This document shows positions 22,733 to 27,480 of a stretch of 64,000 bases of DNA, piece after piece (position 1 is the first letter of the stretch; each line of letters starts with the position of its first letter). Origin of the DNA: Runella sp. MFBS21 (GTDB lineage: Bacteria > Bacteroidota > Bacteroidia > Cytophagales > Spirosomataceae); contig NZ_JARNTW010000003.1 in NCBI RefSeq assembly GCF_029433105.1, positions 62,001-126,000 of the forward strand, given 5' to 3'. The notes beneath the pieces were generated by a model. The model did not search any database, was not told the origin of the DNA, and worked only from the letters and a program-made list of their open reading frames with translations. The position numbers and the translations under genes were made by a program.

Positions 22733-22788
22733 CGCCATTTTTTTATCACCAACCAAAGTATTTTTATTATCTTGTGGTAAAAAATACA

Positions 22789-23376
22789 ATGACAGAAATA
22801 GACAAATTGCAATACGCTTTACAGCAATTTGCAGGTATCACTCCCGAAGAATTCGCATTATCAACGCCTTATTGGAAATACAAAACCTACAAAAAAGGCG
22901 AATTTTATAACCTTCACCGCAACATCTGCAAAGATTTGGGGTTTGTCACTTCGGGCGTGTTTCGTTCTTATACCGTCAATGAAGAAACAGGCGAAGAAAA
23001 AAACGTCTTTCTTTATTCTTCTAATGGCTTTGTGGTAAGCTTCAAGAGCTTTGTAAACCAAATCCCCTGCGACTATCATACCCAAGCCCTGACCGACGCC
23101 AGTATTATTTACATCAATATCCTTGACCTGATTTCTTTATATCAACAATCCCACCAATGGGAAACCTTTGGGAGGCTCCTAGCTCAAGAAGCCTTCAATG
23201 TCACGATGACCCGCCTAGAAGGATTCTTGTTCAAATCGCCCGAAGAACGCTATCTTGATTTGGTACGCCAACATCCCGATATTTTCAACAATGTGCCACT
23301 CTATCATATTTCTTCCTATTTAGGGATTCAAGGGCCTTCATTGAGCCGCATCCGAAAAAGAATTTCTCGTCAATAA
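22789..23376 (+). CDS. Crp/Fnr family transcriptional regulator
   Basis: 195 residues from the ATG at 22789; a GTG five codons earlier is less likely. The beta-roll ligand domain includes LGFVTSGVFRSYTVNEETGE. The C-terminal helix-turn-helix is PLYHISSYLGIQGPSLSRIRKR. It is a distant paralogue of the regulator at 15059. A perfect 8-4-8 palindrome follows at 23381, just upstream of an alpha/beta hydrolase gene, a reasonable target by position. No oxygen-sensing cysteine cluster is seen. Confidence 0.9.
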   Translation: MTEIDKLQYALQQFAGITPEEFALSTPYWKYKTYKKGEFYNLHRNICKDLGFVTSGVFRSYTVNEETGEEKNVFLYSSNGFVVSFKSFVNQIPCDYHTQALTDASIIYINILDLISLYQQSHQWETFGRLLAQEAFNVTMTRLEGFLFKSPEERYLDLVRQHPDIFNNVPLYHISSYLGIQGPSLSRIRKRISRQ

Positions 23377-23380
23377 TTCG

Positions 23381-23400
23381 ATTTTAACTTGGGTTAAAAT
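23381..23400. promoter_or_regulatory. Palindromic box upstream of alpha/beta hydrolase
   Basis: ATTTTAAC-TTGG-GTTAAAAT is a perfect 8-4-8 inverted repeat four bases after the Crp/Fnr stop codon. Its centre is about 30 bp before a GACCTTTG -7-like box, the same geometry as the box at 15800. It could also be a weak terminator, but no T-tract follows. Confidence 0.5.
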
Positions 23401-23419
23401 TATTGACAGTAGTAGGTGT

Positions 23420-23427
23420 GACCTTTG
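23420..23427 (+). promoter_or_regulatory. Candidate -7 box of alpha/beta hydrolase gene
   Basis: GACCTTTG differs from TAnnTTTG at one position, and ATTG at 23402-23405 sits at a suitable -33 distance. It lies 30 bp before the ATG. Confidence 0.4.
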
Positions 23428-23457
23428 TATCATCAAAACACAAAAACACTTACTATC

Positions 23458-24225
23458 ATGAAATCTTCAAACACAATCGTACTTATTCACGGACTATTTG
23501 TTAACAACACAAGCTGGGCACAATGGAAAGCTTATTTTGAAGCACAAGGCTACAAAGTATATACGCCAGCCAACCCCGGACATGAAGGCATCCCCGCCCA
23601 ACTCCGCACCAACATCCACCCTGACCTTACCAAAACAAGCTTTGAAGATGTGGTGATGAATATCGTCAAATTGATTGATACTTTACCCGAAAAACCTATC
23701 GTCGTGGGGCATTCTTTGGCAGGTTTGGTAGTTCAGAAACTCATCGAAATGGACAAAGCCGTAGCGGGAGTAAGTATCGACGGTGCGCCTCCAAAAAATA
23801 TACTAGCTCCTTGGGCTACCATCAAAATGGTACTGCCAGTGGTTAATATTTTCAAAGGTAGTACGCCTTATTTAGGCACTAGAGAATGGTACCACCGCGC
23901 TTTCTTCAACAATTACTCACGCGAAGAAAGTGACCTTTTATATGACAAAATTGCAGTACCCGAAAGTAGAAAAATTGCATGGGGTACACTTCTTGATTCA
24001 TTTGCTAATATCAACTTCAAAAAACCGCACAATCCACTCCTGTTTATTGGAGGCTCAAAAGACAACATCTTTCATTCGACCTTTACCAAACGCATCGCAG
24101 CTTCCTATAAAGACCCCAATAGTATCGTGGACTTCAAGGAATTTGAAGGCAAAAGTCACTTTATCGCAGGCGAAAAAGGTTGGGAAGAAGTAGCCGAGTA
24201 TGTATTAAACTGGATAAAAAAATAA
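23458..24225 (+). CDS. Alpha/beta hydrolase
   Basis: 255 residues from the ATG at 23458. The TTG start 33 bp earlier would place the N-terminus inside the predicted transcript start, so it was not used. The oxyanion segment is LIHGLFVN. The nucleophile S86 lies in VVGHSLAGL. The acid is in FIGGSKDNIF and the histidine in FEGKSHFIAGE, giving a full catalytic triad. The esterase or amidase substrate is unknown. No signal peptide is present, so it is cytoplasmic. Confidence 0.9.
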   Translation: MKSSNTIVLIHGLFVNNTSWAQWKAYFEAQGYKVYTPANPGHEGIPAQLRTNIHPDLTKTSFEDVVMNIVKLIDTLPEKPIVVGHSLAGLVVQKLIEMDKAVAGVSIDGAPPKNILAPWATIKMVLPVVNIFKGSTPYLGTREWYHRAFFNNYSREESDLLYDKIAVPESRKIAWGTLLDSFANINFKKPHNPLLFIGGSKDNIFHSTFTKRIAASYKDPNSIVDFKEFEGKSHFIAGEKGWEEVAEYVLNWIKK

Positions 24226-24245: not shown

Positions 24246-24287
24246 CCCCCTTCTGTTAGATTTATCTACGGAAGGGGGCTTATTTTT
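24246..24287. terminator. Terminator between convergent hydrolase and caspase-lipase genes
   Basis: CCCCCTTC (24246-24253) and GAAGGGGG (24271-24278) pair and are followed by CTTATTTTTA on the plus strand. The hairpin lies between the two stop codons and could serve both directions. Confidence 0.6.
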
Positions 24288-27200
24288 ATATCCCTTCCCC
24301 TATGGCCTTTTCCAATGCCTCTACTGAAGTAGGCTCTACAAAATAATTGAGGTGATGACAAGCCAGCTCATAGGTAGGACTGTTACGGACTTTAAAGATA
24401 TTTTCTAAACTAACCGCAATATCATTGTCCTCATCCTTATACACCCATTCGCCCACTTGTGCTAGTACTTTTTCCATAAATGTATTACTATCATTTGTCA
24501 CTAAATAAGCCTCTAAATTTCCCCCAAATACTACGTAAGGAATCGTTGGAGGATGACCTTCGTTCAAATCTTGAATAAAACTATCTTCAGCGCTCATTTG
24601 GCTCAATGCCTTAAGTAATACATCATTGGTTCCTTTCAGAAAACCCGACAAAAAGCCCGTCACTGCCCCTACTTGGGGTGGAAAAAAGCGAGTTCCGAAG
24701 CCCAATACTATCGCCGCCCAATTGATATAACCTGGCACATCGCCAAACTTGCTACCTCCGTTGGGCGTACCTGCCATGATGAGTTTGTCCACAAAATCGT
24801 CACCTGCCAAGCGTTCTATCATGTACCTCGCCACTAGTCCTCCCATCGAATGAACGACTAAAACCAGCTTCTTGTCGTCTTCTTTACCAAACCCTACTGC
24901 TTGGAGTTTTTTCTTCAAAATACGCGCATTTTCTTCAATGGGCGTGTTCAGGTTTTCGTAGTCGTAAGTCAGTACCAAATCGTAGCCTTTGGTGGTAGCC
25001 ATGCGGAAAGTTTCCGCCATTTCTTCGGTATCGCCAATGATACCATGAATCAGAAGTAAAATTTTATCGGCTTTTTCGATTTTCTCCTTCAAATCCTCAG
25101 AAACTCGTTTGGCTTTGTCGGCATCACTATAATCTACCCAACGTAGCAGCTGCGTCTCCCCTTTAAAACCTATCTTTTTGGCAAACTTTACTACTACCAT
25201 TCTAAGCGCCGAGCCCAAACTACGGGTTTTAGCGGCTTCTATTTCATCAGGAATATGCGTGATTTCCAACCTAAGATTACCTTGTTGGTCGATAGTGGTT
25301 TTCCCCAAAGGCAAAAAATCCTCCCCGTCAAAAAACATAGGCAAACTTACTTCCTCTTCTTCCGTGGTTTGTACCGTTACTACCAACGGATTCTCAATCA
25401 GCGTTTCTTGATTTTGGATATCACTAATTTCCAAAATAGTTTTATCTTCAATTCCTTTTGCGCCTTCTTCCAAACTCACAATTTGGTAGTAAGGATTCGT
25501 ACGAAAATAGTCGTCTCGAATCGCTAACTCACTCACAGTCCGAGTACTAGTACTAAGTGGCGCCCAATTTGTATTTCCTCTAAACGAAGGATGCGGTTGG
25601 ATTTCGATACCTTTACCCATAGCAATTGGCTCTTGCCCGGCTATTTCTTTACCTTTTCGCACCACACGCACCGTAGTGGTTTTGGTAAACCAATCAGATT
25701 TTTTGTTTCCGCCAATCCCTTTTCCTAAACTACGTGAAGCATCAATGAGGCCGCCCATTTCTAACCCTTCTTGCTCAAACAAAAAAGTATCAATCGGCTC
25801 GCTCGACAATAGGACTTTGAAAGTATCTATTTCTTCGTCGTTTCCATCTGTTAGCGTAAAAGTATTCTCTATCAAAGTGAGTTGTTGGCCTGCGCCAATC
25901 GTTTGAAAGTCTAAGGCGAACACCTGAATCCCATAGTCTGGCGACAGGTATAGCAGCGCGGTATACCATTTTTGTTTGGTATTATTGACAAGTTTTATTT
26001 CAAACGGAATATCTTCATCTTCAAAATCAAGGGTAATCGTCGAGGCGTTGAGGGAATTGATTTGATTGTTTTGTTGAATCTCAAAAGTCAAATCAAAACT
26101 TTCTTCTGTTAACTTAGTTTTGGGATTTTTTAAAGCTAACAACCGATGCCAACGCGCCAAAGGCTGCAACGCATTCCAGACTAGAACTGCCGCATTACTC
26201 CCCAAAGCGTATTGAATGAGTTTTCCTGTGGAGGGCTGATAAATCCCCCATTGCACCTCTTCCATTTTTACTTCTACCGAAGCAGCGGCGGGCGTTTCTA
26301 CCCATACGATGCCCGACTCAAGGGTACTCACGCTCTCCATCAAGGTTTTGGTTTCGGCCTCTGCATATACATAAAATGGACTTAACGCCAGTGCGTTTGT
26401 AGGCTCTCCCCAGTAGACTTTCTCCTTATCTAAAGTTTTAGGTTCGGCTTCAAGAGCACTATTAGTAAGACCTAACTCCTTCACTTTCGCTGTTCCAAGG
26501 GCGTTTTCTTCGGCAGCATTTTCAAAGATTTTAATCTCCATTTCTTGTCCCAATGTAGGTTCTAGTCCCCTATCTGCTCCTAATTCAACTTTCCATTGAA
26601 AACTGACTTTATCAAAAACCACTTGATACCTTCCCAATATCCTGTCTGTTGTGGGTTGTCCCAAAAATCCCTGACGCGCACTACTATTGCCAAGGGTTTC
26701 CAACTGAGGCGTTTGATTTCTTAGCTGACTTTTGATAGCCGCTCGCACTTGCACAAACAAATCGGCGTATTGGATTCGGCCTGCATTCTTATTCAAAACT
26801 TTCAATAAAGCCTTCGTAAATTGTCCTTCACCTTGGGCTTCCCAGGCCCGTTCGGTGCGCTCACAAGCTGCCAACAATAAGTGACTGGAGGCAGGCACTA
26901 CCAACGAGTCGCGCTTTAGGTAAGCTCCTTCCAAATAACTCTCCAAGGGGCGAGGCTCGTTACTCCCACTCGTAAAACGTGGTTGTAATTGCATAAACTC
27001 TTCGATTTCACGCGTGACAGAACCAGCATGACACGAATCCGAAATCACCACCAAGTGAGGCTGATTTTGCGCGATTTCTTCCAGCAAAAGCGCAATTTCC
27101 TTGTCGGCCAAATCATATTTCCCCGCTTCACGACTATCGTATAGCACCCATGTTTGTTCTTTTGCATCGGCAGTAAACTTCTGAAAATCAGGAGCAGTTA

Positions 27201-27480
27201 TCCCTTCAGAGCCATGACCAGAGTAATACACCAAGGCCACATCTCCCGTTTTAGCTTGCGTAAGGTGATTTTTGAAGCCTACAATCACATTTTCACGCGT
27301 GGCTTGGGCGTTGGTCAATGTCATTATTTGGGTTTCGTCGCGCAGCAAATCTTTGTAATAAGTCGTTAAGAAAGTCTGCATTTGCGCCACATCATGGAGG
27401 CAAGCCTGAAGAGGGCGAATAGAAGCGACCGAGGCAGGGCTGTAATCGTTGATACCAATGAGAAGCGCAAAGAGTTTCAT
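24286..27480 (-). CDS. Caspase-family protease fused to an alpha/beta-hydrolase (lipase-like) domain
   Basis: 1064 residues from the ATG at 27480; the TTG 33 bp upstream adds residues before the natural MKLFALLIGINDY start. An N-terminal caspase/metacaspase domain (about 1-285) has catalytic H89 in YYSGHGSE and C150 in ISDSCHAGS. A middle beta-rich region of about 500 residues has no recognised domain, though parts (ALLYLSPDYGIQVFALDF) resemble the DUF4384-type domains found with caspases. The C-terminal alpha/beta hydrolase starts near 805 with LLLIHGIIGD, has nucleophile S878 in VVHSMGGLVARY, and has acidic and histidine candidates near 1019 and 1042. No signal peptide or membrane segment is seen. 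A protease-lipase fusion suggests a regulated death or defence effector, but that is inference. Confidence 0.88.
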   Translation of the reverse strand: MKLFALLIGINDYSPASVASIRPLQACLHDVAQMQTFLTTYYKDLLRDETQIMTLTNAQATRENVIVGFKNHLTQAKTGDVALVYYSGHGSEGITAPDFQKFTADAKEQTWVLYDSREAGKYDLADKEIALLLEEIAQNQPHLVVISDSCHAGSVTREIEEFMQLQPRFTSGSNEPRPLESYLEGAYLKRDSLVVPASSHLLLAACERTERAWEAQGEGQFTKALLKVLNKNAGRIQYADLFVQVRAAIKSQLRNQTPQLETLGNSSARQGFLGQPTTDRILGRYQVVFDKVSFQWKVELGADRGLEPTLGQEMEIKIFENAAEENALGTAKVKELGLTNSALEAEPKTLDKEKVYWGEPTNALALSPFYVYAEAETKTLMESVSTLESGIVWVETPAAASVEVKMEEVQWGIYQPSTGKLIQYALGSNAAVLVWNALQPLARWHRLLALKNPKTKLTEESFDLTFEIQQNNQINSLNASTITLDFEDEDIPFEIKLVNNTKQKWYTALLYLSPDYGIQVFALDFQTIGAGQQLTLIENTFTLTDGNDEEIDTFKVLLSSEPIDTFLFEQEGLEMGGLIDASRSLGKGIGGNKKSDWFTKTTTVRVVRKGKEIAGQEPIAMGKGIEIQPHPSFRGNTNWAPLSTSTRTVSELAIRDDYFRTNPYYQIVSLEEGAKGIEDKTILEISDIQNQETLIENPLVVTVQTTEEEEVSLPMFFDGEDFLPLGKTTIDQQGNLRLEITHIPDEIEAAKTRSLGSALRMVVVKFAKKIGFKGETQLLRWVDYSDADKAKRVSEDLKEKIEKADKILLLIHGIIGDTEEMAETFRMATTKGYDLVLTYDYENLNTPIEENARILKKKLQAVGFGKEDDKKLVLVVHSMGGLVARYMIERLAGDDFVDKLIMAGTPNGGSKFGDVPGYINWAAIVLGFGTRFFPPQVGAVTGFLSGFLKGTNDVLLKALSQMSAEDSFIQDLNEGHPPTIPYVVFGGNLEAYLVTNDSNTFMEKVLAQVGEWVYKDEDNDIAVSLENIFKVRNSPTYELACHHLNYFVEPTSVEALEKAIGEGI

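Follow-up and report, generated by a model that had tools for sequence, protein, structure and literature searches.

A caspase–alpha/beta hydrolase fusion protein from Runella as a candidate self-processing effector

A single gene in a 64,000-nucleotide stretch of the Runella sp. MFBS21 genome (RefSeq assembly GCF_029433105.1, contig NZ_JARNTW010000003.1, positions 62,001 to 126,000; hereafter the window) encodes a 1064-residue protein that joins an N-terminal caspase-family protease to a C-terminal lipase-like alpha/beta hydrolase. The fusion, pointed out in an earlier note made from the DNA alone, is confirmed as a real observation, and the caspase–middle–hydrolase architecture is, on sequence comparison, that of a real family present in several phyla. 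The protein is read here as a cytoplasmic, single-chain, caspase-gated acyl hydrolase that would serve as the effector of an NLR-like bacterial conflict system, either anti-phage or cell-death, a reading to which a probability of about 0.48 is given.

In the proposed mechanism, an upstream sensor, which in relatives would be supplied by nSTAND1 and CHAT genes, activates the caspase. The caspase, with its predicted acidic S1 residue, would then cut its own chain after arginine or lysine, at Arg157 and in the linkers at Arg583, Arg647, Lys675 and Arg753, and the freed hydrolase (approximately 310–480 residues) would attack membrane lipids or another acyl ester and stop the cell. In the window genome, which has no partners at the locus, another sensor would serve, or the caspase would sense directly. 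Self-release is likely the switch of such a caspase-gated hydrolase; it is proposed because conserved Arg and Lys residues sit at poorly ordered loops and the caspase carries the predicted acidic S1 residue Asp148.

Domain architecture and conservation of the family

A Pfam scan of the protein matches Peptidase_C14 at residues 4–262 (2e-20) and DUF7379 at residues 808–965 (5e-14), with LCAT and DUF676 ranking behind, and the DUF7379 score of 53.1 bits lies above the curated cut-off of 33. The AlphaFold2 model of the whole chain has a predicted local distance difference test (pLDDT) score of 84 and a predicted template modelling score of 0.67, and VIA-align 2, applied to the Foldseek ranking, matches metacaspases and MALT1 over residues 1–277 and lipases over residues 775–1064. 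Membership in Peptidase C14 is supported by both the caspase fold and the His–Cys dyad, and membership in DUF7379 by both the profile score and the conserved Ser–Asp–His candidates. No 19-residue stretch has a Kyte–Doolittle mean above 1.3, so the protein has no clear membrane helix.

Both active sites are intact (Table 1). Conservation was counted over 121 aligned sequences. His89 and Cys150 are kept throughout, as is Glu214 (121/121), and the hydrolase residues are kept in all but two sequences. All active-site residues are also kept in four plasmid-encoded proteins and in 20 full-length open reading frames (ORFs) of relatives. Comparison of the window gene with its counterpart in Runella zeae DSM 19591 (92% identity) gives a ratio of nonsynonymous to synonymous substitution rates (Ka/Ks) of 0.12 for the whole gene, with values of 0.06 for the caspase part and 0.10 for the hydrolase part. 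In paracaspases and metacaspases, an acidic residue two positions before the catalytic cysteine favours Arg or Lys, and it is from work on these enzymes that Asp148 is presumed to have its S1 role; its invariance suggests a specificity for basic P1 residues, as predicted from the sequence.

Table 1. Window coordinates of the caspase–hydrolase gene and its features, with residue conservation among the 121 aligned sequences
Feature	Position	Strand	Detail
Whole gene, 1064 aa	24286..27480	minus	caspase, beta-rich middle, linkers, alpha/beta hydrolase; ATG at 27480
Caspase (Peptidase_C14) domain, aa 1–275	26656..27480	minus	
Catalytic His89	27214..27216	minus	kept 121/121
Asp148, predicted acidic S1-pocket residue	27037..27039	minus	kept 121/121
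Catalytic Cys150	27031..27033	minus	kept 121/121
Arg157, loop after catalytic Cys, candidate cut site	27010..27012	minus	R 116 + K 5 of 121; adjoins pLDDT<50 segment 154–156
Middle region, aa 284–580, beta-rich	25741..26631	minus	common to GDSL-esterase branch (profile search and hhalign)
Linker 1, aa 581–595, holds Arg583	25696..25740	minus	pLDDT<50 at 582–593
Arg583, linker 1, candidate cut site	25732..25734	minus	R 80 + K 34 of 121
Beta-rich segment, aa 596–774	25159..25695	minus	seen in alpha/beta-hydrolase branch only (profile search)
Arg647, linker 2, candidate cut site	25540..25542	minus	R 115 + K 6 of 121
Lys675, linker 2, candidate cut site	25456..25458	minus	R 103 + K 13 of 121
Arg753, linker 3, just before hydrolase, candidate cut site	25222..25224	minus	R 113 + K 8 of 121; pLDDT<50 at 749–753
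Alpha/beta hydrolase domain (DUF7379), aa 775–1064	24289..25158	minus	
Nucleophile Ser878 (HSMGG)	24847..24849	minus	kept 119/121
Catalytic acid candidate Asp1020	24421..24423	minus	kept 119/121
Catalytic His candidate His1043	24352..24354	minus	kept 119/121

A search covering approximately 5.8 billion proteins gave 448 matches. Homologues share the two-domain order: among the best 120 of the 448, both Pfam domains occur in 119, alignment extends over at least 98% of the query in 117, and the length is 1050–1145 residues in 116. Named sources among the matches listed include Spirosoma, Dyadobacter, Saprospiraceae, Aminicenantes, KSB1 and Electrothrix.

The beta-rich middle region matches nothing in Pfam at E values up to 1, and no named fold for it appears among the rows listed in two fold searches, because enzyme domains fill the rows of both. 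A hidden Markov model (HMM) of residues 284–580 alone recovers proteins of a sister branch that ends in a GDSL esterase, and hhalign aligns the alpha/beta branch with this GDSL branch (A1 against A2) at a probability of 100. An HMM of residues 596–780 finds 21 ORFs at E values of 1e-3 or better, none of them in the GDSL branch. One caspase–middle platform carries either an alpha/beta hydrolase or, in the sister branch, a GDSL esterase, which has another fold. Of the approximately 500 residues first described as unassigned, the part from 284 to 580 can now be attributed to this shared platform. Caspase–GDSL proteins at L083, L084 and L026 also have C-terminal MPAB_Lcp_cat and DUF5995 domains.

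The structure comparison over residues 775–1064 bears out the lipase-like character first proposed for the C-terminal domain, which is, by fold match only, a predicted lipase. It may instead be a specific esterase or deacylase whose substrate is, for instance, a small acyl ester or one bound to a protein, with signalling or processing rather than membrane damage as its output; DUF7379 has no assigned function, and the Foldseek list also includes thioesterases and other esterases. This alternative is compatible with a caspase-gated effector and is possible, if somewhat doubtful.

The distribution of the gene is patchy, because an even sampling of the phylum gave matches at 1e-100 in 2 of 395 genomes, the window's own among them, and in the family 48 of 222 genomes (own included) match the profile at 1e-60, many of them only over the first approximately 620 positions. 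A single-protein scan of genome contigs gave R. zeae as the only match; the surveyed genome G008 has the same sequence as R. zeae DSM 19591 (L004 and L080 agree in every one of their first 18,000 bases). Matches occur in 139 plasmid records, four of which, from Anabaena, Nostoc, Rhizobium ruizarguesonis and Deinococcus aetherius, reach at least 80% query coverage, at 27–30% identity. Two weak matches to the hydrolase part, on contig C5 of the host genome (G000) and in G004, were set aside: both are multi-domain, carry PA14 and secretion-sorting tails, and lack a DUF7379 match. The copy in G617 (L077) lies in two overlapping frames. The idea that it is split by nature was rejected, since the CHAT and GDSL-type genes beside it are also broken; it is not used as evidence for separable domains, because frameshifts or decay are equally likely.

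Candidate self-processing sites

The segments with pLDDT below 50 are residues 154–156, 279–282, 582–593, 649–651, 674–676, 749–753, 769–773 and 950–954. A column scan for positions at which Arg and Lys together reach at least 114 of the 121 sequences returned 14, and five of these (157, 583, 647, 675 and 753) lie near such a segment, that is, within three residues of it, as do 88 of the 1064 residues of the chain (P = 0.004); in the acidic counterpart of the scan, 1 of 17 positions does so. Four of the five sites lie between the platform and the hydrolase. Lys675 is aligned with a basic site before the GDSL domain, in an hhalign stretch of low similarity.

A recurring triplet of Arg, a small and an aliphatic residue, seen in linker 1, prompted a motif test there and in linkers 2 and 3. 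In 46 representatives under 60% identity, [RK][GAS][ILVMF] is found in linkers 1, 2 and 3 of 32, 37 and 45 sequences, respectively, against means of 13.3, 11.2 and 14.1 after shuffling, and controls that begin with Asp/Glu or swap the order show no enrichment. The triplet is 6.9 times as dense in the linkers as in the rest of the protein, the corresponding ratios being 1.6 for Arg/Lys alone, 1.3 for the small–aliphatic pair and 0.65 with Asp/Glu first. Order in the inner part of the GDSL-branch protein is again lowest in linker 1 (640–657), which holds [RK][GAS] in 111 of 119 sequences, and the position before the esterase is Arg in 86 and Lys in 33 of 119, within blocks of pLDDT 57–62.

The two enzymes might also stand side by side without self-cleavage, the caspase cutting other proteins, the hydrolase being switched allosterically and the basic residues being structural. 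This arrangement is unlikely, and several results nevertheless favour it and weigh against release by cleavage. The basic sites occupy fixed columns, as a structural role would allow, and two linkers are likewise enriched in the reversed motif [ILVMF][GAS][RK] (23 of 46 against 13.5 shuffled in linker 1, and 30 against 14.0 in linker 3). The signal in linker 2 is mixed, coming partly from an upstream helix with a TRS/RAL stretch, while the loop proper often reads TRG followed by D, E or N; the view that linker 2 is as clean as linkers 1 and 3 was dropped, and for this reason the cut-site argument rests on the conserved Arg/Lys columns. In the GDSL branch, none of 19 conserved basic columns falls at an inner segment with pLDDT below 50, and the triplet occurs about as often within the folded GDSL domain (17 of 22) as ahead of it (18), and more often than in linker 1 (12). 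Arg and Lys substitute for one another at all five loop sites; of the nine further conserved basic positions, four (168, 446, 760 and 870) also vary in this way, whereas the remaining five (117, 127, 177, 765 and 885) never do, a difference that speaks for cleavage, as does the low order of the loops, the lowest anywhere between the platform and the hydrolase.

Genomic neighbourhood in relatives and in Runella

The alpha/beta form was surveyed at 22 loci (the window, G008, G009, G027, G215 and 17 others; one copy at a contig end was dropped). CHAT and nSTAND1 genes, of kinds known from conflict systems, both lie within 10 kb at 16 of the 22 loci and in 5 of 8 genera; the independent events are fewer than the loci, because 12 of the 22 come from one genus. 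The CHAT genes were detected with an HMM built from a cluster, and of three checked with Pfam one was of the other, CHAT–TPR type. PF20703 also recognises each of the 16 nSTAND1 genes. That the gene in relatives often stands beside immune-type sensor genes suggests a self-processing cell-death device. Each surveyed genome has one to three nSTAND1 matches, except G027, which has none. The pair is missing at six loci, the window included, and at one of the six (G215) a CHAT–TPR gene overlaps the end of the caspase–hydrolase gene.

Seven of the 22 loci also carry a sister of the Amidase_2–caspase–GDSL type and a caspase–NACHT–WD40 gene (called with Pfam for L064, and by cluster or HMM for the others). 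At L061–L066 and L070, genes of the caspase–GDSL type, caspase–NACHT–WD40, caspase–hydrolase, nSTAND1 and CHAT occur together, along with a 261-residue cluster member that in L061 has no Pfam match. Among the plasmid loci, a CHAT–TPR gene comes after the caspase–hydrolase gene in Anabaena, a CHAT gene lies at most 3 kb away in Rhizobium, another caspase gene is present in Deinococcus, and the 3057-residue Nostoc protein combines DUF7379, two caspase matches, nSTAND1 and a periplasmic-binding domain. Proteins of 1757–1923 residues at L139, L140 and L142 have DUF7379, LCAT-like, CHAT and TPR-S domains, one of them also matching pYEATS weakly and having a weakly TIR-like neighbour, and at L076 (4809–7433) a caspase fused to a subtilase-type protease adjoins a divergent caspase–hydrolase gene.

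A further set of findings counts against an effector role. The window copy stands alone, as originally described, with neither a CHAT nor an nSTAND1 gene in the window by the models used for the relatives. In the host genome, a single nSTAND1 gene exceeds the cut-off (L118, 9112–12297, contig C3), which has WD40 repeats and adjoins a TonB-dependent receptor gene, and no close relative of the G009 CHAT was found. No phage record matches the caspase–hydrolase, and PADLOC, run on ten partner and neighbour proteins, named no system, returning only "caspase", HEAT-ARM_XIII (for the WD40 protein) and a marginal mad8; on the caspase–hydrolase itself, its only model is "caspase" (2.7e-26). The earlier suggestion that a trigger might lie in the middle region is not supported, since the relatives point to separate CHAT and nSTAND1 genes, none of which occurs in the window.

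That the window copy is a disused leftover of a CHAT–nSTAND1 locus with its partners lost is quite improbable: most surveyed relatives carry the pair, and in G009, a genome of the same genus, the caspase–hydrolase gene (62% identical, and with the divergent YdjC-cluster neighbour found in the window) is followed by CHAT, nSTAND1 and LRR genes where the window and R. zeae have none, but the Ka/Ks of 0.12 between these two orphan copies, both with intact active sites, argues against it.

The seven window neighbours scanned are, by Pfam, a histidine kinase, a response regulator, an alpha/beta hydrolase, a YdjC protein, a fucosidase, an acyltransferase and one protein without a match; none is defence-like, and none matches MoxR or vWA in Pfam, the VMAP model itself not having been run. 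Downstream of the gene (22774–24225) lie a 200-residue protein that is Crp-like by eye, with no Pfam match, and a separate alpha/beta hydrolase, a pair also kept in R. zeae. Scans for sigma-70 promoters and terminators gave no more matches than shuffled sequences. Elsewhere in the host genome, 13 of its 17 Peptidase_C14 matches, one with an internal stop, lie at 4.4–48 kb of contig C21 (L119–L121, 81 kb), where ParA-like and relaxase-like genes were seen by eye and several ORFs start like secreted proteins.

Comparison with known systems

A fuller proposal, made tentatively and with the odds a little against it, is a "pro-lipase" with its own caspase, in which one platform would bear interchangeable alpha/beta or GDSL warheads, released by cleavage after Arg/Lys in several linkers upon a CHAT–nSTAND1 trigger, as a caspase-to-lipase counterpart of caspase-to-gasdermin death. 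In protease–gasdermin systems, the sensing of a signal leads a caspase-like protease to act on a separate protein and the result is a pore, whereas here the output would be a hydrolase within the same chain. The role of bacterial caspase homologues is mostly open, and in the Runella protein the protease, candidate substrate and output are found in one soluble protein with named candidate cut sites. That clan CD proteases (caspase, CHAT) and acyl hydrolases of two folds are paired again and again would suggest lipid attack as an output shared by such systems.

No description of a caspase–DUF7379 fusion was found by title or abstract start, a weak absence given that subscription papers and bioRxiv were mostly outside the scope. 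Among the closest accounts is that of Kaur et al. (2020; PMC7159879), who in the passages covered propose a joint action of caspase and alpha/beta hydrolase in VMAP systems, with effectors set free by peptidases. These VMAP ternary systems are alike in the predicted joint use of both enzymes and in predicted proteolytic effector release, but there the enzymes are encoded by two genes with MoxR, vWA and VMAP, whereas here they form one chain whose usual neighbours are CHAT and nSTAND1. The EACC1–caspase systems of the same paper likewise have an N-terminal caspase, variable C-terminal domains and proposed effector release by proteolysis; however, the Runella protein scores 48.9 bits against the NCBIfam NF047832 cut-off of 140, and the passages covered mention neither a shared middle platform nor CHAT/nSTAND1 partners. 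The Amidase_2–caspase–GDSL protein of Chitinophaga pinensis, described by Asplund-Samuelsson et al. (2012; PMC3501461), agrees with members of the GDSL sister branch in all three domains, but has a GDSL domain where the Runella protein has an alpha/beta hydrolase; Abhydrolase, PGAP1, DUF676 and LCAT are absent from the main text of that paper, figures aside.

TPR-CHAT of Craspase, in the parts of PMC9729208 covered, is also a caspase-like protease that targets another protein once a signal has been sensed, whereas the Runella protein unites protease and output enzyme in a single chain, with a hydrolase rather than Csx30 as the output. The orthocaspase MaOC1, in the parts of PMC7935541 covered, is a prokaryotic caspase homologue that cuts after basic residues, as is only predicted for the Runella protein, and prefers basic clusters; unlike the proposed self-processing, its target is a separate antitoxin. 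In the parts of these sources covered, the pairing of a caspase with an alpha/beta hydrolase as neighbouring genes and proteolytic effector release were already predicted (PMC7159879) and a caspase–GDSL–amidase chain had already been noted (PMC3501461), and new as far as searched are the one-chain DUF7379 family, the swapped warheads on one platform, the CHAT–nSTAND1 partnership and the conserved basic loop sites.
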